NCBI GenBank assembly: GCA_902518505.1
Contig: CABYGG010000001.1
Coordinates: 62,001-126,000 of the forward strand
DNA from: an uncultured Alphaproteobacteria bacterium
Lineage (GTDB): Bacteria > Pseudomonadota > Alphaproteobacteria > HIMB59
Length of the DNA: 64,000 nucleotides
Reading direction: 5' to 3'
The translations under genes were made by a program, and so were the position numbers. The notes under the pieces are model-generated. The model saw only the letters and a program-made list of their open reading frames with translations. It was not told the DNA's origin and did not search any database. This document shows, piece by piece, positions 51,415 through 64,000 of the stretch (position 1 is the first letter of the stretch; each line of letters begins with the position of its first letter).

Positions 51415-52080
51415 ATGAAAAGATCTGAAATAAATGCTGCAATATCTGAAGCTAAAGATATGATCGATAGATATTCGTGGGTTCTACCTAAATGGGGCTA
51501 TTGGTCTAAAGAAGAGTACAACAATAATCCTAACTTAAAAAATTATTTAAAAAATCATCAAATGGGCTGGGATGTTACTGATTTTGGTAAAGGCGAATTT
51601 GAAAAAAAAGGTATCACCTTGTTTTGTATAAGGAATGGAATACAGGGTAACAATGATGACAAACCCTATGCAGAAAAGTTATTATTTATGAGAGAGGGCC
51701 AAGAAATTCCTTTTCATAGCCATAAAGTAAAACTGGAAGATATAATTAATCGGGGAGGTGGGGAATTAGTGATTGAATTTTTAGAAGTTGACTCAAATCA
51801 AATTGAATTAAGCTCTAAAATTGATGTTCTTGTTGATGGTGAAATAGTTTCCATTGCACCAAGAGAACCATTGATTTTAAAAAGAGGCCAGAGCGTCACT
51901 GTTGAAAGAAACATATATCATAAATTTTACTCAGCTGAGGGTTCAGGAATGGTTATGGCAGGAGAGGTTTCTCAAGTCAACGATGATAATAAAGATAATT
52001 ATTTTTTAGAAAGTGTGGGAAGGTTCACTGAAATTGAAGAAGATGAAGTTGCGATACATCCTCTCTGGAATGAAATATAA
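51415..52080 (+). CDS. D-lyxose ketol-isomerase family cupin
   Basis: A 221-residue cupin matching the D-lyxose isomerase family. The metal site reads PFHSHKVKLEDIINRGGG, with His101, His103 and Glu108, plus His169 in NIYHKFYSA; these correspond to the four manganese ligands of the E. coli enzyme. It interconverts D-lyxose and D-xylulose, and relatives act also on D-mannose and fructose. It begins 31 bases after the shared palindrome/promoter region and overlaps the PfkB kinase gene by one base (TAATG), so the isomerised sugar is probably phosphorylated by that kinase. Confidence 0.85.
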   Translation: MKRSEINAAISEAKDMIDRYSWVLPKWGYWSKEEYNNNPNLKNYLKNHQMGWDVTDFGKGEFEKKGITLFCIRNGIQGNNDDKPYAEKLLFMREGQEIPFHSHKVKLEDIINRGGGELVIEFLEVDSNQIELSSKIDVLVDGEIVSIAPREPLILKRGQSVTVERNIYHKFYSAEGSGMVMAGEVSQVNDDNKDNYFLESVGRFTEIEEDEVAIHPLWNEI

Positions 52081-53060
52081 TGCAAAGAGGTATAATTGGC
52101 CTTGGAATGTGGTGTGTAGATACCACATACAAAATAGATAATTTACCTGATAGAGGTAAATTAGAAGCAATTTCTAATACTTTTCAATGCGTAGGTGGAG
52201 GTCCATCAAATGTTTTGACAGATTTAAATTCTTTAGGATTTAAACATCCAATGTACGCAATGGGATCAATTGGACTTGATACAGATGCATCAATTATAAA
52301 AAAACATTGTAGAGAAAATAAAATAGAGACTAAATATTTAATTGTATCAAATCAAATTTCTACTTCTCATACCGTTTGTATGTTTGAAAAACAAAAAGAA
52401 AGAACTTTTTTATATTATCCAGGGGCAAACAGCTTACTTGATAAAAAACATTTTAAAATTAATCAATTAAAAATTTCACCTAAAGTTCTTTATGTCGGAT
52501 ATATTACACTATTAGGAAAATTGGACAAATTTGATGTTGACAAAAAAACTCGTTTATCAAAAGTTTTAAAAAAAGCTAAAAGTAAAAATGTGATAACAGT
52601 TTTAGATTTAGTTTCAAATAAACACCCTAAATATAAAAATATTATTGAAAGCTCATTGCCATTCACCGATTATTTGCTTTTGAATGAAATTGAAGCAGAG
52701 ATACTATTTAATAAAAAAATTTACGACTTCAATAAAAAAAATCTTAATCAAAAAATCTTAATCAAGTTAATCAGTAAAGTTTTCAAAAAGGGTATTATTA
52801 GAGGAGTTGTTATTCATAGTCCAACTGAGTCGCTCTATTTTGATAGATCAAAAAAAATTTACACTAAATCAAAGGTTTTACCAAAAAGCAGGGTAATAAA
52901 TTCAGTTGGAGCTGGAGATGCTTTTTGTGCAGCGTTTATATTTGGAATACATGAAAATTGGGACATAAAAAAAACTCTCAAAAAGGCTCATGCAGCTGGA
53001 ACATCTATGATGAAAGTTAATGCCTCTTCTGGAAATTTACCCAATATATCTAAATTATAA
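52080..53060 (+). CDS. PfkB-family carbohydrate kinase
   Basis: A 326-residue ribokinase-like kinase: FQCVGGGPSNVLTDLNSLG near the N terminus (substrate loop), the ATP region VVIHSPTESLYF and the catalytic NSVGAGDAFCAAFIFG with Asp in GAGD. The family member is not ribokinase (the GGKGSN motif is GGGPSN here). Coupled to the lyxose-isomerase gene, it probably phosphorylates the ketose product (xylulose or fructose-like), but substrate specificity cannot be read. It converges with the aldolase-like gene, overlapping it by six bases. Confidence 0.85.
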   Translation: MQRGIIGLGMWCVDTTYKIDNLPDRGKLEAISNTFQCVGGGPSNVLTDLNSLGFKHPMYAMGSIGLDTDASIIKKHCRENKIETKYLIVSNQISTSHTVCMFEKQKERTFLYYPGANSLLDKKHFKINQLKISPKVLYVGYITLLGKLDKFDVDKKTRLSKVLKKAKSKNVITVLDLVSNKHPKYKNIIESSLPFTDYLLLNEIEAEILFNKKIYDFNKKNLNQKILIKLISKVFKKGIIRGVVIHSPTESLYFDRSKKIYTKSKVLPKSRVINSVGAGDAFCAAFIFGIHENWDIKKTLKKAHAAGTSMMKVNASSGNLPNISKL

Positions 53061-54047
53061 TTTTAAAACTTTTTCAGTGACCTCAAGGTCTTTTAAAAGT
53101 TTCCTGTCGGGTATGAGTTTATTTTTCTTTAATTCAGAATGGTAAAGTTTTACAGCATCCTTAGGTTTAATGTTACTTTCAACAACTTCTCTCATAATTT
53201 TTACTAATAAGATAGGATCTTCAGCTAAGTTAATTTTTCTCCCAAACAAAGCTACTTTTGCACCATATTGACTGGCTTTTTTAATTAATTCAAAACAATC
53301 TCTTGTCGTGCCCTTGCTACCCCCAAGAATACCAACAATAAGATTTTCAGGATCGAAGCTGGCTAGCTCCTCCATTGCTTTTGGACCATTGTAAGCTATT
53401 TTCAAAAAAAGAGGTCTCTCATCCTTAGTCTGCCCGGCTATTGCTTTTATAATGCAATCGTTAATGTAATCACCCATTTGTCGTATGTTCATATTTAGAT
53501 CAATCGGGGAATTAAATACTTCTAAAAAATGTTTAAATTTATATTTAGAAGCCTCAATTCTATATTCTTTATAGGCATTTAACATTGCAAGGTCATAGTC
53601 AACATTATTAGAAAATGTTATAGAAAATAAACCAAGGTTAACTAATTTACTTACTTTGTTCATTTGAGCAGACCGAAAAGGTCTAGGATTAGTTTTTCTA
53701 TAATTTCCATTTCTCATCAGCCAGATATCAGTCGTATCATTCATTCTAATAGCAGGTGTAATACTTGAATTTTTAAATAAATTTCTTTTTACAAGATCTT
53801 CACCAACTGATGCAGACATCAGCATAATATCTACTAAATTAGATTTAGTCATCGATATCATTGCATTTTTGTAATCTACTAGGTTTTGATATCCTTTTAG
53901 TACTTTTCCATTTTCATTTCTTTTTGATCCAGGTGTTGTGATGCCCATTGCTAGATCGCCATCTTTAGCATCTGCTATAATGAAGTCTCTTGGAGAATAT
54001 TTATTATTTTTTATTTTAAGAATTTTTTTATCTAAAGACTTATTCAT
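53055..54047 (-). CDS. Class I aldolase-like protein (DeoC/LacD/FbaB-fold), uncharacterised
   Basis: A 330-residue TIM-barrel-type protein. It shows DFIIADAKDGDLAMG near residue 21, FLEVF strands near 174, a FLKIAYNG segment with Lys216 as the candidate Schiff-base residue, then LIVGILGGSKGTTRD (242-250) and VALFGRKINLAED, a phosphate-binding end like DeoC/FbaB aldolases. I cannot name substrate or product. It probably cleaves a sugar phosphate to DHAP or pyruvate plus an aldehyde. It faces the PfkB kinase tail-to-tail and is divergent from xylB with 60 bases between; TATAAT lies six bases before its ATG. Confidence 0.7.
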   Translation of the reverse strand: MNKSLDKKILKIKNNKYSPRDFIIADAKDGDLAMGITTPGSKRNENGKVLKGYQNLVDYKNAMISMTKSNLVDIMLMSASVGEDLVKRNLFKNSSITPAIRMNDTTDIWLMRNGNYRKTNPRPFRSAQMNKVSKLVNLGLFSITFSNNVDYDLAMLNAYKEYRIEASKYKFKHFLEVFNSPIDLNMNIRQMGDYINDCIIKAIAGQTKDERPLFLKIAYNGPKAMEELASFDPENLIVGILGGSKGTTRDCFELIKKASQYGAKVALFGRKINLAEDPILLVKIMREVVESNIKPKDAVKLYHSELKKNKLIPDRKLLKDLEVTEKVLKL

Positions 54048-54053
54048 GATTTG

Positions 54054-54059
54054 ATTATA
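54054..54059 (-). promoter_or_regulatory. -10 element; candidate leaderless start of the aldolase-like gene
   Basis: Minus-strand TATAAT followed by CAAATC and ATG at 54047, the same six-base spacing as for the dehydrogenase gene at 51368. It lies in TTGATTATACTCAA (54051-54064), almost identical to the site at 51372-51384. No good -35 hexamer is visible. Confidence 0.48.
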
Positions 54060-54095
54060 CTCAATTCTAAAAATAGAAAATAGTTTTATTCTCTA

Positions 54096-54101
54096 TATAA
54101 T
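54096..54101 (+). promoter_or_regulatory. -10 element; candidate leaderless start of xylB
   Basis: TATAAT at 54096-54101, then ATAAAA and the ATG at 54108: again exactly six bases, so transcription should start at the ATG. There is no ribosome-binding site before xylB, which fits. No -35 consensus is seen at 16-18 bases. Confidence 0.48.
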
Positions 54102-54107
54102 ATAAAA

Positions 54108-55562
54108 ATGTATTTAGGTATTGATCTTGGTACTTCTTCGATGAAGTGTTTGCTACTTGGAGAAGAACAAGAAATTTTGTTGAGTGTTATTAGTGAAGAT
54201 ATACCACTGTCCACGCCTCAAAATGGCTGGTCAGAACAAGATCCATCATTTTGGATAAAAGCGTTAGATCAGTGTATCAAACAAATTGTTTTAAAATTTG
54301 ATTTATCGCAGATTAAAGCTGTATCTTTTTCCGGACATATGCATGGTGCAACTTGTATTGATAAAAATTATAAGGTCATAAGGCCATGTATACTTTGGAA
54401 TGATACACGTAGTTTTAAGCAGTGCAGTCAAATTATGGCTGACGAAACTGTTATGGATATAGCTGGAAATATAGCAATGCCTGGTTTTACATCTCCAAAA
54501 ATCTTATGGATGAAAGAACACGAAAGTGAAAATTTTAAATCAATTGCAAAGGTTTTATTGCCGAAAGACTATTTAAGGTTTTATTTAACGGGAGAGTTTT
54601 TTAGTGATTTGTCAGACGCAGCAGGCACTTATTGGTTAGATGTTAAAAATAGAACTTGGTCTAATAAACTTTTAGACATTGGCTCAATGGATATCTCGCA
54701 AATGCCTAAAACTTGTGAGGGGACCGATCAAACAGGTGTAATTAAAAAAGATATTGCAGAAAAATATGGCTTTAATAACTCTTGCAAAGTATTTGGTGGA
54801 GCAGGAGATAATGCTGCAGCCGCTGTTGGATTAGGGCTTTACCAAGAGGGAAATGCTTCATTATCTTTGGGTACTTCTGGTGTAATTTTTGGTTCAACAA
54901 AAAATTTTTTAAAAAATTATGATGATGCTATACATTCCTTTTGCCACTGCTTACCAGAAACATGGCATCTTATGTCAGTGATGCTCTCTTGTACCTCAAA
55001 TGTTAATTGGTTTATAAATAATTTTAATTCATCAATTGATGAAATTAATAAAGTGTTAAGTGCTGTTTTAAATAATTTTTCTGAAATAAATAGATACCCT
55101 TATTATCTTCCTTATCTCACAGGTGAGAGAACCCCAATTAATGACCCTCATATAAGAGCAAGTTTTCACGAAATGAGTATTGACACTAATCGAGATACAT
55201 TAATCTACAGTTTAATAGAAGGTATTTCTTTCGGTTTGTATGATAATTATTCTTCCTTAGTTAAGACAGGTATAAAGTTAGATAACATCTTTGTAATAGG
55301 AGGTGGTTCTAAAAATGATAGCTGGATACAAATACTTGCTTCATTGATGGAGAGAGATTTATCTATAACAGATGCGTCAGATACAATGGCTGCTTTTGGG
55401 GCTGCTAGAATAGCATTTCTTGGTTACAATAATTTAAAACCAAGAGAAGCCCTTAGTCTTCCAAAAGTCAAAAAAATTATAGGTAAGAATGAAATTCAAA
55501 CGGATATCTTAAAAGACAGATTTTTAAGGTGGAAAAGCTTTTATTTAGGAAAAAATGTCTAG
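54108..55562 (+). CDS. xylB: Xylulokinase-type FGGY kinase
   Basis: A 484-residue FGGY kinase with phosphate loop LGIDLGTSSMK (3-13), SFSGHMHGATCID with the xylulokinase-type MHG, ILWNDTR, GGAGDNAAAAVG, SLGTSGVIF, and VIGGGSKNDSWIQILAS near the C terminus. MHGA and WNDTR are the usual marks of xylulokinase, making xylulose 5-phosphate. Substrate could be D-xylulose from the lyxose isomerase or from other ketoses. Leaderless start suspected. It overlaps the next gene, an FrcK-type kinase, by eight bases. Confidence 0.9.
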   Translation: MYLGIDLGTSSMKCLLLGEEQEILLSVISEDIPLSTPQNGWSEQDPSFWIKALDQCIKQIVLKFDLSQIKAVSFSGHMHGATCIDKNYKVIRPCILWNDTRSFKQCSQIMADETVMDIAGNIAMPGFTSPKILWMKEHESENFKSIAKVLLPKDYLRFYLTGEFFSDLSDAAGTYWLDVKNRTWSNKLLDIGSMDISQMPKTCEGTDQTGVIKKDIAEKYGFNNSCKVFGGAGDNAAAAVGLGLYQEGNASLSLGTSGVIFGSTKNFLKNYDDAIHSFCHCLPETWHLMSVMLSCTSNVNWFINNFNSSIDEINKVLSAVLNNFSEINRYPYYLPYLTGERTPINDPHIRASFHEMSIDTNRDTLIYSLIEGISFGLYDNYSSLVKTGIKLDNIFVIGGGSKNDSWIQILASLMERDLSITDASDTMAAFGAARIAFLGYNNLKPREALSLPKVKKIIGKNEIQTDILKDRFLRWKSFYLGKNV

Positions 55563-56193
55563 TAACCAAAGAATAGAATTCCCTGAATTAGTAAACAAAA
55601 TACTAGAAAATGTTATTAAAATTAATCAAAGTCGTTATTTTATTGCAATTTCAGGAGCGCCAGCATCTGGAAAAAGCACAATATCTGAAAAATTAAAGTC
55701 TGAACTAATATCAAAAAACCACAAATCAAGTGTTCTTCAAATGGATGGATTCCATCTAGATAATAATATTCTTGAGAAAAAAAAATTGATTGAGAGAAAA
55801 GGGGCACCGGAAACATTTGATGTACTAGGTTTATTAAATTGTTTATTAAGATTAAAAAACGAGGGTGAAGTAATTGTTCCTATCTTTGATAGATCATTAG
55901 AACTATCAAGATCATCTGCATTAGTCATATCTGAGAATACAAAAATTATAATAGTAGAGGGTAATTATTTATTGCTTGATCAAGAACCATGGAGAAAAAT
56001 TCATAATTTTTTTGACACGACTATTATGATTGATTGCAATAAAGATATTTTAGAAAAAAGATTAATTGAAAGATGGGAGAGTTATGGGCTATCTAATGAT
56101 CAAATTAAAAATAAAGTTTATAAAAATGATCTTCCAAATGGATTAAATGTTATTAGTAAAAGTATTTCTGCTGAATTTAATTTAATAAATTAA
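55555..56193 (+). CDS. FrcK/uridine kinase-like P-loop sugar kinase
   Basis: A 212-residue P-loop kinase with Walker A ISGAPASGKST (32-42), QMDGFHLDN (Asp as catalytic base) and IIVEGNYLLLDQEPW, and a C-terminal lid with KRLIERWESYG. This is the uridine kinase/pantothenate kinase-like group that includes FrcK, found with frcBCA in rhizobia. A fructose or nucleoside kinase role is inferred from that link; specificity is unknown. It overlaps xylB by eight bases and converges with frcA (four-base overlap); in rhizobia it lies downstream of frcA on the same strand. Confidence 0.8.
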   Translation: MSSNQRIEFPELVNKILENVIKINQSRYFIAISGAPASGKSTISEKLKSELISKNHKSSVLQMDGFHLDNNILEKKKLIERKGAPETFDVLGLLNCLLRLKNEGEVIVPIFDRSLELSRSSALVISENTKIIIVEGNYLLLDQEPWRKIHNFFDTTIMIDCNKDILEKRLIERWESYGLSNDQIKNKVYKNDLPNGLNVISKSISAEFNLIN

Positions 56194-56954
56194 TCTTGAG
56201 GTGGTTGCTTAGCACCTGTCATATATGCGACAGCATCAGACATTTCATGTTTCTTTGGGTCAATTACACATAATCGGGTTCCAAGTCTATGAATATGTAT
56301 TCTATCAGCTACTTCAAAAACATGAGGCATGTTATGAGAAATTAATATGATGGGAATTCCTCTAGACCTCACCTCACCGATTAATTCTAAAACTCTTCTA
56401 CTTTCTTTGACACCTAGAGCGGCAGTAGGCTCATCCATAATAACGACTTTAGTTCCAAATGATGTTGCTCTTGCAACTGCAACACCTTGCCGTTGGCCTC
56501 CAGACAATGTTTCAACTAATTGATTTATATTTTGTATGGTTAATAGACCAAGATCAGACAGTCGTTTTCTAGCTTCATCTGCCATTGCTTTTTTATCTAA
56601 AAATTTTAAAAAACTACCCATAAAGCCTTTTTGTCTAATTTCTCTGCCTAAAAACATATTATCAGTGATTGATAAAGCAGGTGAAAGTGCAAGGTTCTGA
56701 TAAACAGTTTCGATACCTAATTTTCTTGCTTCTATAGGTGATGTAAAAGTAACTTTATTTCCATCAAGCAATATTTCACCACTATCAGGTATAACAGCAC
56801 CACATAACACCTTAATTAGTGTAGATTTTCCAGCACCATTGTCTCCAATTACTCCCAAAACCTCACCTGGATAAAGCTCTAAATCAGCACTATCGAGTGC
56901 AACAACTTTACCGTATTTTTTTGACAACTTATTTGCTACTAGCACTGGCTGCAT
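56190..56954 (-). CDS. frcA: Fructose/ribose-type ABC transporter ATP-binding protein
   Basis: A 254-residue single ABC ATPase (rather than the fused double ATPase of RbsA): Walker A GDNGAGKST at 37-45, ETLSGGQRQGVAVARA, Walker B VVIMDEPTAALG and an H-loop in ILISHN. Single-domain architecture is the hallmark of FrcA. The reading frame extends 26 codons further upstream, but ATG 56954 overlaps the frcC stop (TAATG) and gives the usual N terminus MQPVLVANKLSKKYG. It energises import of fructose, with ribose and mannose as known rhizobial substrates. It ends four bases into the convergent frcK-like gene. Confidence 0.9.
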   Translation of the reverse strand: MQPVLVANKLSKKYGKVVALDSADLELYPGEVLGVIGDNGAGKSTLIKVLCGAVIPDSGEILLDGNKVTFTSPIEARKLGIETVYQNLALSPALSITDNMFLGREIRQKGFMGSFLKFLDKKAMADEARKRLSDLGLLTIQNINQLVETLSGGQRQGVAVARATSFGTKVVIMDEPTAALGVKESRRVLELIGEVRSRGIPIILISHNMPHVFEVADRIHIHRLGTRLCVIDPKKHEMSDAVAYMTGAKQPPQD

Positions 56955-58048
56955 TATGCTGAGACCTTTCTTATCCATTGATCTATTCCAACAGCTACTA
57001 TAATAAGACAACCTAAAGCAAATCTTTGCCACAATACATCAAGACCTGCTATGGACAGACCTGAGCTAAATACACCCACAATCAAAGCTCCAAATAAAGA
57101 GCCAATTATAGTGCCCCTTCCACCAAAAAGAGAAGTTCCACCTATTACAACAGCTGTGATGGAGTCTAAGTTACCCTCATAAAAAGATGTTGGAGACACT
57201 GAACCAACTCTACCTATGGAAACCCATGCTCCAATAGCAACAACAAGACCAGCAACAGCATAAATTGAAACTAACATCCTATCAGTTCTAATACCTGATA
57301 ACTCAGCAGCCTCCTTATCATCGCCAATTGCGTAAACATGCCTCCCCCAAGCAGTTTTATTGAGTAAAAACCAGAGAAAAACGAAAATACCAATCATGAG
57401 GAACGCACCGTAAGTGAATACAAAACCCCCAAGATTTATTCTCTCTCCCCAAAAGTGCAGAAGAGGAGCATTTACTTCAATATCGGAGCTTCTAATAGAT
57501 TGAGATCCAGTAAAGAATATTACTAGTGCAAAAAATATATTCCAAGTTCCTAAAGTAACTATAAACGGAGGCAATCTTAAGCGGGTTACCAGTAACCCAT
57601 TGAAAGCACCTGTTGCAATACCAGAGATAAACCCCACTGCTATTGCTGGGAGGGTTGGAACTCCCATTTCAACAGAAAGCTTACCCATAAATACTGATGC
57701 TAAAACCATCATTGCAGCAACACTTAAATCAATTCCAGCAGTTAATATTATTAAAGTTTGAGCAGCTGCAAGAATACCGACAATTGTAACTTGTTGTACA
57801 ATCAGAGATAAATTAAAAGCAGAGAAAAATTTTCCTCCAGCGATGAAGCCAAATGCAATAACGCTTAATATTAAAATAATAACAGGAACTATTGTTGGAT
57901 TACCGTGAAGAAAATGTTGAATTTTTTTTAGTGTAGTTTGTTCACCTAAATCAAAAGAGTGATGATCTTGATCTTTTTCTCCTATATCAGTTGTGAATTT
58001 AGGTTGATCTTTTAGATCTTTAGAAATGTCATCAGAAACTTTATTCAT
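56954..58048 (-). CDS. frcC: Fructose/ribose-type ABC transporter permease
   Basis: A 364-residue inner-membrane permease of the RbsC/FrcC family. The N-terminal ~45 residues are polar and cytosolic, then about ten membrane segments follow, with LIILTAGIDLSVAAMMVLASV and the coupling loop ISGIRTDRMLVSIYAVAGLV and GGTSLFGGRGTIIGSLFGALIVG characteristic of this family. It forms a homodimeric channel with FrcA and receives sugar from FrcB. It follows frcB after 59 bases containing an 11-bp hairpin and overlaps frcA by one base. Confidence 0.93.
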   Translation of the reverse strand: MNKVSDDISKDLKDQPKFTTDIGEKDQDHHSFDLGEQTTLKKIQHFLHGNPTIVPVIILILSVIAFGFIAGGKFFSAFNLSLIVQQVTIVGILAAAQTLIILTAGIDLSVAAMMVLASVFMGKLSVEMGVPTLPAIAVGFISGIATGAFNGLLVTRLRLPPFIVTLGTWNIFFALVIFFTGSQSIRSSDIEVNAPLLHFWGERINLGGFVFTYGAFLMIGIFVFLWFLLNKTAWGRHVYAIGDDKEAAELSGIRTDRMLVSIYAVAGLVVAIGAWVSIGRVGSVSPTSFYEGNLDSITAVVIGGTSLFGGRGTIIGSLFGALIVGVFSSGLSIAGLDVLWQRFALGCLIIVAVGIDQWIRKVSA

Positions 58049-58065
58049 TTAAAAAATATCATAGC

Positions 58066-58091
58066 TTCAGGGCAGAATAATCTGCCCTGAA
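58066..58091 (-). promoter_or_regulatory. 11-bp hairpin between frcB and frcC
   Basis: TTCAGGGCAGA at 58066-58076 and its exact complement at 58081-58091 flank an ATAA tetraloop. It lies in the frcB-frcC spacer, 17 bases after the frcB stop. A T-run (TTTTTT) follows on the minus strand only after about 10 bases. It likely stabilises frcB mRNA or partly terminates, so the binding protein exceeds the membrane parts. Confidence 0.7.
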
Positions 58092-58107
58092 TAATAAAAT
58101 TATTGGA

Positions 58108-59142
58108 TTAACCCCAACATCTATCCATACCTTCTTTGACACTAATTGATGGAACTCCGCTGGCAGCATCATCTGTAACTAAGTTCACACCAGTGTTAAA
58201 GAAGTCAAGACCTGGAGTATTTTCAGGCTTTGAACCATCTTCAGCCCAGGCTTTAATCGCCTCAACACCAAGTGAAGCCATTAACAATGGGTATTGTTGA
58301 GATGTAGCACCTATAATTCCTCTTTCAACGTCAGCCACACCTGGGCAACCTCCGTCAACTGAAGCAATAAGAACGCTACCATCATCTTTTCCAACTGCTT
58401 TTAATGCCTCATATGCACCAACAGCTGCTGGCTCATTAATAGTGTACACAACGTTTATGTCTGGGTCTTTTTGTAGACATTTTTCCATTGCAGTTCTTCC
58501 ACCTTCTTCGTTACCGTTTGTAACTTCATTACAGATAATTCTTGGATCATCCTCATCTCCCCATCTGGAAACGTCTTTTACATCGATTCCAAATCCAGAT
58601 AAGAAACCTTGATCTCTAAGAACACCAACAGAAGGTTGACTCTCGTTAAGGTCTAACATTGCAATTTTGGCATTAGCAGCATCTGCTCCTAACTTTGCAG
58701 CAACCCAAGCTCCACCTAACTCACCTGCCTTGAAGTTATCAGTTGCAAAAGTAGAGTCTGCAGCTGTAATTGGCTCTAGTGGTGTGTCAAGAGCAATGAC
58801 TAGTAAACCATTGTCTTGAGCATTTTTTAATGGAGTAACAATAGCTTTTGTGTCAGATGCAGCAATTAAAATACCTTTTGCACCTGAAGCAATACAAGTC
58901 TCAATAGCTCTTACTTGAGTCTCATGGTCACCATCAACTTTACCCGCAAAGAATGATAATTTGACACCTAATTCATTAGCTCTCGCTTCTGCTCCTTCTT
59001 TCATTTTAACGAAGAAAGGATTGATGTCTGTTTTTGTAATTAAGCAAGCTTCAACAGCGTGGCTTCCTGCTTTTGCTGGCATAGTAGCAAAAGTAAAAGC
59101 AACAGCCATAAGTGAAGCTAGAACTAGAGATAATTTTCTCAT
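58108..59142 (-). CDS. frcB: Sugar ABC transporter periplasmic binding protein (FrcB type)
   Basis: A 344-residue periplasmic protein. A signal peptide covers residues 1-25 (hydrophobic core [14 protein letters not shown], cut after AKA), followed by the class I binding-protein pattern [58 protein letters not shown] and [20 protein letters not shown]. Similarity is highest to FrcB and other fructose/ribose/xylose binders. It delivers the sugar to FrcC-FrcA. AGGAGG (59156-59151) lies eight bases before the ATG, among the strongest ribosome sites here. The 76-base upstream gap holds two palindromes and TTGACA. Confidence 0.93.
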
Positions 59143-59172
59143 AGTTATTTCCTCCTATATATAGTCACATTC

Positions 59173-59199
59173 ACAATATCCTATTGTCATGTCAACATG
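59173..59199. promoter_or_regulatory. Tandem palindromes in the frcB promoter, candidate operator
   Basis: ACAATA-TCC-TATTGT (59173-59187) is directly followed by CATGT-CA-ACATG (59188-59199), both perfect; GCTAGC follows at 59199-59204. TTGACA (minus strand, 59195-59190) is embedded in the second palindrome. The site lies about 30-55 bases before the frcB ATG, suited to a sugar-responsive repressor. No regulator gene is in the window. Confidence 0.5.
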
Positions 59200-59218
59200 C
59201 TAGCTAAATTTTAATTTT

Positions 59219-60694
59219 TTAGTCTTGATTTTTCACAAAATGTTTATCAACTATTTCTTTCCATGAACTAAAAGAATTTCTTATAGAGTCATCCTTATTA
59301 GGAATAATTTTAGAGTTTTTCACCTTAAAATCGTTTAAACCAGTAGTATTTTTTAAATTATGATAATACTGCATTCCAAAAAGTAACGCACCATACGATG
59401 ACATATCCTCCATTTCAGGGATATTTAACTCAATTTCTAAAAGGTTACTTATAATTTGAAGGAAAAACTTATTTTTTACCATACCACCATCAATGGACAA
59501 ATTTTTTAAATCAAGATTTCTTGATTTTTTCATAAACTCTAAATACACGACCACTTGGTAAGCAACAGACTCTAATCCAGCTCTGACCAAATGATTGGTA
59601 TTTGTAGATGCACTTATTCCAAAGAATGCAGCCCTAGCGTCTGATATCCAAAATGGAGGACCTAGCCCTGAGAAGGCAGGTATTAGATAGACTCCATTAT
59701 TATCTTTTTCTTTTTTTGATAAGACTTCACTATCCTCAGGCTTATCAATTAATTTTAAATTGTTTTTAAGCCATGAAATCGTTCCTCCAGCGAATGAGTT
59801 TAGGCACTCTAATGCATAGATATTCTGTTTATCACTTGTGAAAGCAAGGGAGGTTAGTGAATTTTCATCGATAATCATCTCATTGCCAATATTTGTTTGA
59901 ATGTTAAAACCAGTTCCTGTCGTGATTTTAGTATCACCTTTATCAAAACAAAAATTTGCAAAAAATGAAGCTTGCGCATCACCAGCGACTCCAATTATAG
60001 GTATTAACTTTTTAAATGCTTTATTAAAATCACTCTCTCCAAAAATATTTGAACTATTGAGTATTTTTGGAAGTTTCAAATTATTGCAATTAAAAATATT
60101 TAATAAATTTTGATCCCAAGAATTTTCTAAACAATTAAATAATAAGGTTCTTGATGCATTTGTAGTATCAGTCACATAAGAATTTAGGTTTGTAAATCTA
60201 TAAATGAGATATGTTTCGATTGTTCCAAATAAGATATCCCCATTGTCAATTTTCGATTTAACTTCTGATTTGTTCTCATAAACCCATTTTAATTTACTGC
60301 CAGAAAAAAAAGTATTAGGTTTAAGACCAGTTTTATCAATAATTTCTTTATTTTTTGACTTATCGTTTAGAATTCCCTCACAAATTTTTTGACCTCTAGT
60401 ACACTGCCAAACAACAGCATTATGTATTGGTTTTCCATCTTTTTTATTAAAAAGCGTAAATGTTTCTCTTTGATTAGTTAGACTGATGAATTTAGGATTT
60501 GAAATAATTTCTGATGCCTTTTTAACTAACTCTAATAAGTTTTGATAAATTTCTTCTAAATCGTGTTCAATATAACCTTCATCTGTGATTATTTGCTGGT
60601 GTCCCTTTTGAAATCTTTTTACGACCTCTAATTTTTCGTTAAAAACAATAACTGTTGTGGATGACGTACTTGAGTCAATAGTTATATAACTCAT
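59219..60694 (-). CDS. FGGY kinase, glycerol-kinase-like with altered substrate residues
   Basis: A 491-residue FGGY kinase of glycerol kinase type: TNQRETFTLF (Arg76, Glu77), VVWQCTRG (Trp96), AGDAQASFFANF (Asp239), GTGFNIQTNIG and GLGPPFWISDARAAFFG with GGMVKNKFFLQ at the C terminus. Two glycerol contacts of the E. coli enzyme look changed: the Tyr135 place is Phe129 and the Phe270 place is Asn264. The substrate is therefore probably not glycerol but a polyol or ketose. It overlaps the transketolase C-subunit gene by four bases and precedes frcB by 76 bases, so it serves a sugar brought in by FrcBCA. Confidence 0.85.
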   Translation of the reverse strand: MSYITIDSSTSSTTVIVFNEKLEVVKRFQKGHQQIITDEGYIEHDLEEIYQNLLELVKKASEIISNPKFISLTNQRETFTLFNKKDGKPIHNAVVWQCTRGQKICEGILNDKSKNKEIIDKTGLKPNTFFSGSKLKWVYENKSEVKSKIDNGDILFGTIETYLIYRFTNLNSYVTDTTNASRTLLFNCLENSWDQNLLNIFNCNNLKLPKILNSSNIFGESDFNKAFKKLIPIIGVAGDAQASFFANFCFDKGDTKITTGTGFNIQTNIGNEMIIDENSLTSLAFTSDKQNIYALECLNSFAGGTISWLKNNLKLIDKPEDSEVLSKKEKDNNGVYLIPAFSGLGPPFWISDARAAFFGISASTNTNHLVRAGLESVAYQVVVYLEFMKKSRNLDLKNLSIDGGMVKNKFFLQIISNLLEIELNIPEMEDMSSYGALLFGMQYYHNLKNTTGLNDFKVKNSKIIPNKDDSIRNSFSSWKEIVDKHFVKNQD

Positions 60695-61632
60695 TTGTTA
60701 AGTAAGTCTTTTGATATTTCAGCTATCTTTTCTGGACTCATATTATAGTGATCTAATACATCAGCTTGAGATCCATTAATCATATATTCATCAGGTATTC
60801 CAAGTATTTTGAGTTTTACATTTATATTATTTTGAGCAATCAGGCTCGCACAACATTCACCAAGTCCTCCAAATATACTATGTTCTTCGACTGTTAAAAT
60901 TGCTTTTGAGTTTTGAGAAAATTCTATAAATGTTTTTTTATCAAAGGGCTTTATTGTATGCATACTGATAATTGAACAATGAATATTACTTTTTTTTAAA
61001 ATTTCACTTGCCAAGTATGCTCGTTGCAAAGTTTCGCCAGTTGCTACAATTGTTAAATCCTCTCCTTTTTTTACTACAATAGATTTTCCAATTTTAAATT
61101 TTGTGCCTGGAGGATGAATATCCATCATTGGTTTTTTTCCATACCTAATGTAAAGGGGATGATTATATGAAATAGCTTGTTTTATAACTTCGGCTGCTTC
61201 AAAGTTATCCGCAGGTGCAACTATTGTCATATTATTGATTGTTCTTAAAGTAGCAAAGTCATGGATGGAGTGGTGTGTAGATCCTAGCTGTCCATAACTT
61301 ATTCCTGCACTAATGCCTATTAACGAAACATTTAGGTCAGAGTAAGCAACATCATTTTTTATTTGCTCTAAAGCTCTAGCAGTTAGAAAACTTGCAGGTG
61401 ATACTCCAAATACAATCTTTCCCCCTGCAGCCAATCCTGATGAAACTCCAACCAAATTTTGTTCAGCGATGCCAACTTCAATGATTTGATTAGGCAATTC
61501 TTTACCAAAAGGAACCAATTTACCTGATCCTCTCGAGTCACTAGTAACAACTATAATATTTTTATTTTTCCTTGCCTCTTTAAGTAGTGTCTCAGAAAAG
61601 ACCTCAAGATTTGGTTTACCAATTTCATTCAT
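60691..61632 (-). CDS. Transketolase C-terminal (pyrimidine-binding) subunit
   Basis: A 313-residue protein equal to the pyrimidine (Pyr) and C-terminal domains of transketolase: FVVT-like IIVVTSDSRGSGKL, QIIEVGIAEQNLVGVSSGLAAGG with the catalytic Glu that activates thiamine diphosphate, GSTHHSIHDFATLRTI, and a C-terminal domain with VEEHSIFGGLGECCA. It works with the partner subunit encoded just upstream (eight-base overlap) as a split, alpha2-beta2-type enzyme. It moves a two-carbon ketol unit between sugar phosphates; the cellular acceptor is not known. Also matches AptB-like apulose-4-phosphate transketolase subunits. Confidence 0.9.
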   Translation of the reverse strand: MNEIGKPNLEVFSETLLKEARKNKNIIVVTSDSRGSGKLVPFGKELPNQIIEVGIAEQNLVGVSSGLAAGGKIVFGVSPASFLTARALEQIKNDVAYSDLNVSLIGISAGISYGQLGSTHHSIHDFATLRTINNMTIVAPADNFEAAEVIKQAISYNHPLYIRYGKKPMMDIHPPGTKFKIGKSIVVKKGEDLTIVATGETLQRAYLASEILKKSNIHCSIISMHTIKPFDKKTFIEFSQNSKAILTVEEHSIFGGLGECCASLIAQNNINVKLKILGIPDEYMINGSQADVLDHYNMSPEKIAEISKDLLNK

Positions 61633-62452
61633 AAGAATTTAGTTTCTCATTTAACTCTGAGATAGCGCTTTCATATTCATCCTTATTCGGTACTTTGTGG
61701 TGCCAGTCAATCTGATTTTCAATAAAACTTACACCCGATCCTTTAGTTGTTTTTGCAATTATTACAGTTGGCTTATTTTCCTTAACGGGGACATGCTGAA
61801 ATACAGATAAAAGATCAGAAATATTATTTCCATTAGTAGAAATAGTTTCAAAACCAAAAGACTTAAATTTTTTATCAATTGGTTCAATAGGATTTACATC
61901 TTCAGTTTTTCCAGTAATTTGTAAATCGTTTCTATCAACAATTACAATTAAATTATCTAAGTTATATTTTGAGGCAGTAGTACAAGCCTCCCAAACCGAA
62001 CCCTCCGAGAGCTCCCCATCTCCCAATAAAGAAAACACTTTATTGTTTTTTTGATCAATTTTTTTGCATATTGCTAAACCCACAGCGACTGAAAGACCGT
62101 GACCAAGAGCTCCAGTATTATGTTCAATCCCAGGTACCTTTTTTGTAGGGTGACCTATAAAGTGTGAATTAAATTGATTCAAGGTATTTAGATCTTTTTT
62201 TGAATAAAAACCGCAATCACATAATACTGTGAATAATGCTTCCACAGAGTGTCCTTTACTTTGAATAAAATGATCACGATCCAAGTTCGGAAAATTTTTG
62301 GGAGAAATGTCCATAACTGAATTGTAAAGAACATTCAAAATATCAATACAAGAAAGGCTCCCCCCAGTATGACCTGCACCAGATTTAAAAATTATTTCAA
62401 GAATAGTTTTTCTATATTCTAATGATTTCTTTTTTAAATTTTTCTCATTCAT
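61625..62452 (-). CDS. Transketolase N-terminal (thiamine-diphosphate-binding) subunit
   Basis: A 275-residue PP-domain protein of a two-subunit transketolase. GAGHTGGSLSCIDIL lies near 25-39, SKGHS at 65-69, GALGHGLSVAVG at 114-125, and the GDGE...N motif (144-147 to Asn175) binds the ThDP-metal. The C-terminal part has HKVPNKDEYE. Splitting into N and C halves is common in rhizobial sugar operons and in the D-apiose pathway. The gene is the first of the kinase-transketolase unit and divergent from the isomerase gene, sharing an 82-base promoter region. ATG at 62452 has no clear ribosome site. Confidence 0.9.
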   Translation of the reverse strand: MNEKNLKKKSLEYRKTILEIIFKSGAGHTGGSLSCIDILNVLYNSVMDISPKNFPNLDRDHFIQSKGHSVEALFTVLCDCGFYSKKDLNTLNQFNSHFIGHPTKKVPGIEHNTGALGHGLSVAVGLAICKKIDQKNNKVFSLLGDGELSEGSVWEACTTASKYNLDNLIVIVDRNDLQITGKTEDVNPIEPIDKKFKSFGFETISTNGNNISDLLSVFQHVPVKENKPTVIIAKTTKGSGVSFIENQIDWHHKVPNKDEYESAISELNEKLNSYE

Positions 62453-62534
62453 AGTGAATAGATAAAGAATATCCCCTTTCTAGGCTCGATCAATTATTAT
62501 ATATTACATTTAGTAAGGTAGGAGGTAATAGGAC

Positions 62535-63938
62535 GTGTCATCAACATTAGGTATAATAATAGGTAATAGAGATTTTTTTCCAGATCATCTAATTACAGAG
62601 GCTAGAAATGAAGTTTTGAATATTTTTAAGAATAAAGGTTTAAAACCTATTATTTTGAAAGACTCAGACACCAAGCTGGGTGGAGTTGAAACATTTCTTG
62701 AAGCTCAAAAGTGTGCTGATCTTTTTAAATCCCATAAAGATGAAATAGAGGGCATATTAGTGGTCTTACCTAATTTTGGTGATGAAAAAGGAGTAGCTGA
62801 CACAATTAGACTATCAGGTTTAGATGTGCCTGTTCTGGTTCAGGCAACTCCAGACGATTTAGAAAAAATGCAACCCTCAAATAGAAGAGATGCTTATTGT
62901 GGTAAAATATCTGTTTGTAATAATCTTTATCAATATGGAATAAAGTACTCGTTAACAAAAAGCCATGTTGTAAGTTTGTCCGGAAATGAATTTGATTATG
63001 AGCTAAATAAATTTATTTCAATTTGTAAAGTAGTGAAAGGTATGAGGAGGGTCAGAATTGGAGCTGTTGGAGCAAGACCTCAAGCTTTTAATACAGTCAG
63101 GTTCAGTGAAAAAATTTTAGAACGCCATGGTATTAGCGTCACTACTATCGATTTATCAGAAGTCCTTGGTAAAGCTAGAGAACTCAATGATGATAGCAAA
63201 AAAGTTAAAGACTCGATGAATAGAATTTTAGGTTATGGAGATACTACTGCTACCCCATCTGAAAAATTATTACAGCTTGCGAGGCTTGATGTTGTTTTAA
63301 ATGATTTTGTTGAAACAAACAAACTCGATGCTACTGCTATTCAATGTTGGACAAGTGTTCAAGAAAATTATGGATGTAATGTTTGTACGTCAATGAGTAT
63401 GATGAGCGAAAATATGCTTCCAAGTGCTTGTGAAGTAGATGTCACTGGAACTTTAACGATGTATGCTATGCAATTAGCCTCAAACAGTCCAAGTGCTTTA
63501 GTTGATTGGAATAATAATTATGACCAAGACGAGGAAAAGTGTGTTTTATTTCATTGTGGAAATTGGGCTAAAAGTTTCCTCCCTGATTTGAAAATAAGTA
63601 CAGCACCTATTCTGGGAAGTGTTTTTGGTGAGGAAAAAACCCATGGTGCACTTGAAGGTAGAACGCCAGCTAATCCTCTAACTTATGGAAGGATTTCCAC
63701 TGATGATAACTTAGGTAAAATAAAATGCTACTTTGGAGAGGGAGAGCTAACTGATGATCCTTTAAACACTTTTGGTACAAGAGCTGTTGCAAAAGTACCT
63801 AAGCTTCAAAAATTAATGCAATATGTTTGTAGACATGGTTATGAACACCATGTAGTGATGAATGCTTCAAAAACTGGCGAAATATTAAATGAGGCTTGTG
63901 GTAATTATCTTAATTGGGAAACTTATATTCATAGTTAA
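62535..63938 (+). CDS. L-fucose/L-arabinose isomerase-family protein
   Basis: A 467-residue isomerase-family protein. N-terminal domain with LGIIIGNRDFFPDHL and EGILVVLPNFGDEKG; middle and C-terminal domains with AIQCWTSVQENYGCNVCTSMSMMSE, ACEVDVTGTLTMYAM (candidate metal-binding acids) and HCGNWAKSF; the pattern is that of fucose/arabinose isomerase-like proteins of unknown specificity. It would convert an aldose to the ketose used by the kinase across the divergent promoter. GTG at 62535 is preceded by GGAGG at 62521-62525, a firm start. Sulfoquinovose isomerase (SqvD-type) belongs to the same broad family. Nothing further is coded in the remaining 62 bases. Confidence 0.78.
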   Translation: MSSTLGIIIGNRDFFPDHLITEARNEVLNIFKNKGLKPIILKDSDTKLGGVETFLEAQKCADLFKSHKDEIEGILVVLPNFGDEKGVADTIRLSGLDVPVLVQATPDDLEKMQPSNRRDAYCGKISVCNNLYQYGIKYSLTKSHVVSLSGNEFDYELNKFISICKVVKGMRRVRIGAVGARPQAFNTVRFSEKILERHGISVTTIDLSEVLGKARELNDDSKKVKDSMNRILGYGDTTATPSEKLLQLARLDVVLNDFVETNKLDATAIQCWTSVQENYGCNVCTSMSMMSENMLPSACEVDVTGTLTMYAMQLASNSPSALVDWNNNYDQDEEKCVLFHCGNWAKSFLPDLKISTAPILGSVFGEEKTHGALEGRTPANPLTYGRISTDDNLGKIKCYFGEGELTDDPLNTFGTRAVAKVPKLQKLMQYVCRHGYEHHVVMNASKTGEILNEACGNYLNWETYIHS

Positions 63939-64000
63939 TTTAGCTAATTTGCTTTAATTTATTATAATTAAAACACAAGAAATACCTATAATTTTTGATT

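Follow-up and report, generated by a model that had tools for sequence, protein, structure and literature searches.

The stretch of DNA analysed here (the window; 64 000 nucleotides) covers positions 62001–126000 of contig 1 of a 1.21 Mb, 79.5% complete genome of an uncultured alphaproteobacterium of the HIMB59 lineage. It contains a block of seven reading frames, all of which were confirmed in the sequence: an isomerase-like gene on the forward strand and, on the reverse strand, the N and C subunits of a split transketolase (tkN and tkC), an FGGY kinase resembling glycerol kinase (GlpK) and the sugar-binding protein (SBP), permease and ATPase of an FrcBCA-type ATP-binding cassette (ABC) importer (Table 1). 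The frames, their Pfam matches, every one of which exceeds the cut-off, and the overlapping starts and stops bear out the gene order given in a preliminary description of the window. The tkC and tkN genes overlap by 8 nt, and the ATG of the kinase overlaps the stop codon of tkC by 4 nt (ATGA); the ATPase frame opens at GTG 57032, but ATG 56954, which overlaps the permease stop (TAATG), is the likelier start. We propose that this block is most probably a D-apiose utilization locus of the non-oxidative type; the gene content, conservation, isomerase exchange, residue changes and fold reported below are direct results of computation, and from them we infer the substrate and the catalytic steps.

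Apiose is a branched sugar that is known mainly from land plants, and a non-oxidative pathway for its D-form reportedly proceeds through ApsI, AplK and AptA/B. The block shares with that pathway an FGGY kinase, two transketolase genes, a pentose-type ABC importer and an isomerase as the first enzyme. It differs in that the first enzyme has the fold of L-arabinose isomerase (AraA) and L-fucose isomerase (FucI), whereas ApsI is a xylose-isomerase-like TIM barrel, a difference of family that the preliminary description had correctly pointed out; furthermore, the kinase and transketolases have diverged, and the importer is of the FrcBCA type instead of the RbsA type with a DUF2291 protein. In the proposed pathway FrcBCA would import D-apiose, which the AraA/FucI-fold isomerase, presumably a metal-dependent enzyme, would convert to D-apulose, as its exchange with ApsI and its context suggest. 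The GlpK-like kinase, judging from its position and altered glycerol site, would then produce D-apulose 4-phosphate, from which the split transketolase would pass the two-carbon ketol group on to glyceraldehyde 3-phosphate; the products would be xylulose 5-phosphate and dihydroxyacetone phosphate (DHAP). This ketol transfer is the chemistry of AptAB. The pathway itself is thus a known one, and what would be new here is the enzyme family at its first step and the organism.

Table 1. Features of the proposed D-apiose block (positions in the window).
Feature	Position	Strand	Family matches and remarks
Isomerase-like gene	62535..63938	+	L-arabinose/L-fucose isomerase fold; Fucose_iso_C (Pfam, above cut-off); proposed D-apiose isomerase, unrelated to ApsI
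Gap of 82 bp separating the divergent tkN and isomerase genes	62453..62534	.	Presumed divergent promoters
Split transketolase N (thiamine diphosphate-binding) subunit, tkN, AptA-like	61625..62452	-	Transketolase_N PF00456, 146.5 bits
Split transketolase C (pyrimidine and C-terminal) subunit, tkC, AptB-like	60691..61632	-	PF02779 Transket_pyr and PF02780 Transketolase_C
FGGY kinase resembling GlpK; proposed AplK-like D-apulose kinase	59219..60694	-	PF00370 and PF02782 (FGGY_N/C)
FrcB-like SBP, proposed to bind D-apiose or a pentose	58108..59142	-	PF13407 (Peripla_BP_4), 142.1 bits
FrcC-like ABC permease	56954..58048	-	PF02653 (BPD_transp_2), 124.8 bits
FrcA-like single-domain ABC ATPase	56190..56954	-	PF00005 (ABC_tran), 108.9 bits

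The isomerase was compared with ApsI across 37 congeneric genomes, including that of the window, with a threshold of at least 50% identity for the kinase and E ≤ 1e-40 for the ApsI type. The kinase is present in 27 congeners, 12 of which carry the window-type isomerase and 13 the ApsI-type TIM-barrel isomerase, with none carrying both; the hypergeometric chance of no overlap is 5e-6 if relatedness is ignored. In the remaining two the contigs break off: G002 has a short-chain dehydrogenase/reductase (SDR) gene and a contig end at the locus, and in G012 the contig stops within tkC. Among the ten congeners without the kinase ApsI is absent and the isomerase occurs once (G015, near a contig start), giving 13 genomes of each type and no overlap in the whole set. 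No ApsI match at E ≤ 1e-40 was found in the genome of the window, which is 79.5% complete. The ApsI-type protein matches PDB entry 3ktc over 322 residues with 454 bits. Three genomes of another family combine ApsI with a related kinase (45–46% identity), tkN and tkC.

On a tree of tkC and kinase with 25 rows, from which near-identical congeners, contig-truncated loci (e.g. L134) and the two-piece kinase of G009 were left out and in which two rows with both ApsI and SDR genes were coded as ApsI, the isomerase type has changed at least six times, as forced by well-supported branches. The rows nearest to the window outside its own clade are of the ApsI type. Identities to individual loci are uneven from gene to gene: the window and L042 share 98.7% in the isomerase, 81.9% in the kinase and 89.1% in tkN, and the ApsI-type locus L128 shares 93–94% with the window in kinase and tkC and only 82% in tkN. 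Such a pattern fits recombination in which the gene for the first step would be exchanged along with a portion of the neighbouring tkN.

A further tie to apiose is provided by SDR genes. According to PMC13001218, growth on D-apiose, which K-12 does not show, is found in strains of E. coli STc131, E. coli STc14 and E. fergusonii that carry a particular cluster, and this cluster comprises the FGGY kinase gene aplK, the transketolase genes aptA and aptB and two SDR genes, a pair supposed by its authors to replace ApsI. The corresponding cluster of E. coli SE15 consists of aplK, aptA, aptB, an RbsA-type importer, a DUF2291 gene, a regulator and the two SDR genes; it follows the same kinase and transketolase logic as the window, with the SDR pair in the place of the isomerase. 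Genes 52–57% identical to these SDRs stand beside the kinase family of the window in three congeners (both in G013 and G020; one seen in G002, where the contig ends), and no such gene was found in the genome of the window. Since G013 and G020 also carry ApsI, the SDR genes tie the HIMB59 locus to the E. coli apiose cluster but need not be substitutes for ApsI here, and the idea that the pair is a third interchangeable first step in HIMB59 was dropped. In both genomes (G020, L129 2955–9895; G013, L172 1445–5052) the SDR pair, an RbsA-type importer and ApsI all lie at the kinase/transketolase locus, and G020 has FrcBCA in addition to the RbsA-type importer.

The isomerase family itself also occurs in enterobacterial clusters of this kind. 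Plasmid operons in Sodalis, Rahnella and Klebsiella records share with the window tkN, tkC, the FGGY kinase and an isomerase 52–53% identical to that of the window; they differ from it in their importer, which is of the RbsA type and accompanied by DUF2291, and in possessing a sugar-binding regulator, and the records state no substrate. Their kinase (69–72% identity), tkN (78–79%) and tkC (73–77%) are close to those of SE15, and the same records contain no close SDR homologue (best 27–35% identity). The Klebsiella record (L034; CP110761.1) is an 11.6 kb linear ‘plasmid’ made up almost wholly of the apiose-type cluster and is possibly an assembly fragment. A search for the ApsI type in 398 Pseudomonadota genomes gave five matches at E ≤ 1e-90, three adjoining kinase and transketolase genes and two not. 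In L169 and L170, which are ApsI-type loci, tkN (79%) and tkC (71–72%) resemble those of SE15, with 44–45% identity for the kinase, and the SBP (82–83%) and permease (81%) resemble those of Sodalis. Because the binding proteins are so closely similar, the isomerase-type and ApsI-type clusters very probably take the same ligand. A Rhizobium plasmid encodes, one after the other, an ApsI-type protein (79%), tkN, tkC, an FGGY kinase and a triose-phosphate isomerase, the last of which fits DHAP as a product. The preliminary description had spoken of an unnamed route and a possibly new substrate; the exchange with ApsI, the SDR genes at the locus and the enterobacterial apiose-cluster homologues beside the isomerase instead make D-apiose the parsimonious substrate.

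A scan of GTDB with an alignment of the isomerase yielded at least 526 loci at E ≤ 1e-3, of which the best 80 were analysed, part of them ending at contig ends. These comprise 13 loci of HIMB59 type and 67 of Bacteroidota type, the latter with isomerases of 68–73% identity. Protein clustering across the 80 recovered tkC in 77, tkN in 76, the kinase in 69, the ABC ATPase in 68 and the permease in 65, and the SBP and DUF2291 are found in 58 and 56 of the 67 Bacteroidota loci, where the usual order is isomerase–tkN–tkC–SBP–DUF2291–ATPase–permease–kinase. The linkage is not a matter of chance, and this conservation in relatives lends support to the route suggested in the preliminary description, with an importer, isomerase, FGGY kinase and split transketolase arranged by an apiose-like logic.

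Of the 67 Bacteroidota loci, 15 include homologues of the apiosidase-like family PF13204, and in seven of these 15 apiosidase-like, GH43-like and BT_1020-like genes directly precede the isomerase (the apiosidase-like gene of L097 is split in two). A genome search covering 39 of the 67 found at least one PF13204 match in 38 (37 above the cut-off; 77 matches in total), compared with two of 14 control genomes. A match falls inside the isomerase locus in 13 of the 39, these 13 having been matched to the PF13204 positions by hand, against 0.28 expected; since the loci are related, the tail probability should not be read at face value. The Pfam scan of the apiosidase homologues covered L077 and L112. 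Nucleoside-hydrolase-like Sde182 proteins (PF07632), possibly extracytoplasmic enzymes that release the sugar, recur across the 80-locus set, with 43 such proteins spread over 28 loci (e.g. L100 13881–15275).

FrcBCA is likely, although not certain, to be the apiose importer. FrcB (E ≤ 1e-50) is found in 25 of the 27 congeners with the kinase and in none of the ten without it, and the permease is conserved alongside the SBP and ATPase in relatives. In G055 and G059, which belong to another family, frcBCA, tkN, tkC and the kinase form one block, with no xylB homologue in the 15.7–17 kb read. The kinase-bearing congeners without FrcB are G033 and G013, and the latter has an RbsA-type importer beside the kinase instead. 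A tentative alternative, to which we give distinctly less weight, is that the enzymes handle D-apiose, which enters otherwise, while FrcBCA serves another sugar such as lyxose, xylulose or ribose. FrcBCA borders both the apiose-type block and a set of lyxose isomerase and xylulokinase genes, which it may also serve; in G024 it stands with xylB, more than 20 kb from the kinase and isomerase, G020 holds both importers, and FrcB is unlike the SBP of the RbsA-type apiose importers. The association of FrcB with the kinase, the blocks of G055 and G059 and the replacement in G013 argue against this alternative. The importer role assigned to FrcBCA in the preliminary description is plausible, short of certain. 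The best PDB matches of the SBP are a mixture of ribose- and allose-type proteins, with 5ibq, which we take to be an apiose complex, only fifth; the SBP sequence was therefore dropped as evidence for the substrate.

The fold of the isomerase matches those of AraA and FucI, with 11–14% identity in structural alignments. Neither the sequence nor its profile found a relative in the PDB, alignment of the profile with E. coli FucI by hhalign gave nothing (probability 0.2) although the folds match, and blastn of the gene against E. coli genomes gave no match. Glu300, Asp324 and His438/His439 are invariant, and the gap of 24 residues between the Glu and Asp is the same as between Glu337 and Asp361 of FucI; these residues are candidate metal ligands, the model being too poor in this region for an analysis of geometry. 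The operon differs from those of AraA and FucI, and in view of the profile result a reading as L-fucose isomerase proper was rejected. The closest named relatives among the matches listed are from single-cell and metagenome-assembled genomes of uncultured Alphaproteobacteria, including ‘alpha proteobacterium HIMB59 MED-G104’, which places the window in the HIMB59/AEGEAN-169 group of the surface ocean, and recent foreign DNA was dismissed on the basis of G+C contents of 34.5% overall and 20.5% at third codon positions, which resemble those of the neighbouring genes. The protein is apparently an AraA/FucI-fold enzyme new to the conversion of D-apiose to D-apulose, and its exchange with ApsI together with its context suggest a non-homologous replacement.

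We consider it unlikely that the isomerase acts on another aldose (L-fucose, D-arabinose, L-arabinose or an unknown sugar), with the transketolase splitting a ketose phosphate from a new substrate. Such a role would suit a fold typical of arabinose and fucose isomerases and the divergence of the window kinase and transketolases from the enterobacterial enzymes, but it is opposed by the finding that, with kinase and transketolase unchanged in kind, this isomerase and ApsI strictly replace one another, by the SBP common to the isomerase-type and ApsI-type clusters and by the apiosidases near the Bacteroidota operons; the seven genes also include no fuculose-phosphate aldolase or ribulose-phosphate epimerase family in Pfam. 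A sulfoquinovose pathway, in which the isomerase would be SftI/SqwI and the split transketolase the sulfo-transketolase SqwGH, is highly improbable: SftI is the sole NCBIfam match of the isomerase and split transketolases do occur in sulfo-transketolase pathways, but the score of 89.1 bits lies far below the equivalog cut-off of 700, an FGGY kinase has no role there, and no transaldolase or sulfonate-specific family was found among the window proteins scanned.

The kinase resembles GlpK but falls below both NCBIfam GlpK cut-offs (456.5 versus 590.35 and 440.3 versus 498), whereas the genome's own GlpK on contig 16, to which it is 36% identical, exceeds both (682.2 and 727.5). The glycerol-contact residues of GlpK are, we assume, Arg84, Glu85, Trp104, Tyr136, Asp246, Gln247 and Phe271; the alignments show Y136F, Q247A and F271N in the window kinase. 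Gln247 and Phe271 are retained in GlpK of E. coli, in the genome's own GlpK and in seven GlpK-type sequences from Bacteroidota genomes (nine in all), and lost in every HIMB59-group orthologue examined. Serine occupies both positions in all 54 Bacteroidota cluster kinases longer than 440 residues in the kinase protein cluster of the 80-locus survey, in four enterobacterial kinases including E. coli AplK, in the Rhizobium kinase, in those of the ApsI clusters L166, L169 and L170 and in three HIMB59-order kinases of a second family; L139 and L144 have Ser/Cys, and the window kinase and the other examined members of its clade Ala/Asn. Judged from these alignments, loss of Gln247 and Phe271 is a mark of the cluster kinases, among which the clade of the window has moved furthest. 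The cluster kinases still resemble GlpK in NCBIfam, one Bacteroidota member exceeding one GlpK cut-off (561.8 versus 498). In the kinase tree GlpK has as its sister group the kinases of the enterobacteria, Rhizobium and L078, and the Bacteroidota rows do not come out as a single clade, so that a single origin of the apulose kinases lacks support. In G009 the kinase gene is in two overlapping pieces in different frames (L147 9006–10486/L049 6683–8156), with the isomerase and transketolase alongside intact; the split is due to an error of sequencing or to decay of the gene.

The window tkN and tkC are 44 and 38% identical to AptA and AptB of SE15, respectively, and about 50–61% identical to their counterparts in the Bacteroidota loci, with which the HIMB59 transketolases group, and not with the enterobacterial ones, in a quick tree (SH-aLRT 88). 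A separate 650-residue transketolase is encoded on contig 7, in agreement with the preliminary description of the split enzyme as dedicated; the kinase and split transketolase of the block are extra copies, since this transketolase and the GlpK of contig 16 also exist, and housekeeping roles were rejected for both. That the kinase is a plain glycerol kinase in a fortuitous neighbourhood hence has hardly any likelihood: its best NCBIfam models and its identity to the genome's GlpK point that way, but that GlpK has an intact site, Gln247 and Phe271 are lost from the HIMB59-group orthologues, and the linkage recurs in another phylum.

Several observations weigh against D-apiose utilization. The window kinase is 27–28% identical end to end to the four enterobacterial kinases, its Ala/Asn site is unlike the Ser/Ser of AplK, and the HIMB59 kinases form a clade of their own (100/100). 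FrcBCA is unlike the RbsA-type importer with DUF2291 of the other clusters (SBP identity 29–31%). The identity of 3ktc as ApsI of Pectobacterium is our presumption, ApsI co-occurs with the SDR genes in two of three SDR-bearing congeners, and ApsI homologues are also found without kinase and transketolase genes (L167, L168 and Pantoea), so ApsI alone is no proof of apiose. No more than 15 of the 67 Bacteroidota loci contain PF13204 homologues, and seven of these 15 represent one related arrangement; the comparison was made without Bacteroidota lacking the operon as a control. Apiose in open-ocean water is undocumented in the open-licence literature searched. As for the homologues outside clusters, those of L149, L167 and L168 are 63–71% identical, and the family may have other roles; the Pantoea homologue was set aside as lying outside any kinase/transketolase cluster.

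On balance we think it fairly probable that a D-apiose isomerase family of AraA/FucI fold, common in Bacteroidota, has repeatedly exchanged with ApsI at one locus in abundant surface-ocean bacteria, which would imply that apiose is a regular constituent of marine dissolved organic matter. A function would then be available for a family to which the records examined give no more than the labels ‘L-fucose/L-arabinose isomerase family protein’ and ‘fucose isomerase’, the apiose pathway would be completed in many Bacteroidota (67 of the best 80 loci), and AEGEAN-169/HIMB59 would use a plant-associated sugar, making its presence and source in sea water directly testable. The locus would also illustrate cleanly how, in nature, one enzyme is replaced by a non-homologous one at a fixed site; what surprises is that plankton of the open ocean should have an apiose route, and one whose first enzyme can be swapped. 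Among the matches listed from the open-licence literature, no paper assigns the isomerase family to apiose and apiose use is unreported for HIMB59 or AEGEAN-169. Published work on HIMB59/AEGEAN-169 emphasizes a widened range of sugars used, with an ABC transporter for fructose among the examples, and the word apiose is absent from the main texts of PMC10308909 and PMC11366302; the latter reports that the group makes up as much as 6% of surface-water communities in the South Pacific Gyre.

The gap between tkN and the isomerase contains an A/T-rich imperfect palindrome (62492–62511), the sole candidate regulatory site; no convincing operator or promoter was found, promoter-like matches in 56000–64000 being no commoner than in shuffled sequences. 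Adjoining the block at 51415–56193, and beside frcBCA in many relatives, is a second set of sugar genes encoding a member of the D-lyxose isomerase family (PF07385), which does not reach the NCBIfam cut-off, a PfkB kinase, a protein without a Pfam match, a xylulokinase (above the cut-off) and a uridine-kinase/PRK-like kinase, which suggests a conversion of D-lyxose to xylulose 5-phosphate. The protein without a Pfam family (53055–54047; 330 residues) shows weak NCBIfam similarity to LsrF-type thiolases/aldolases and is kept beside xylB in HIMB59 relatives.

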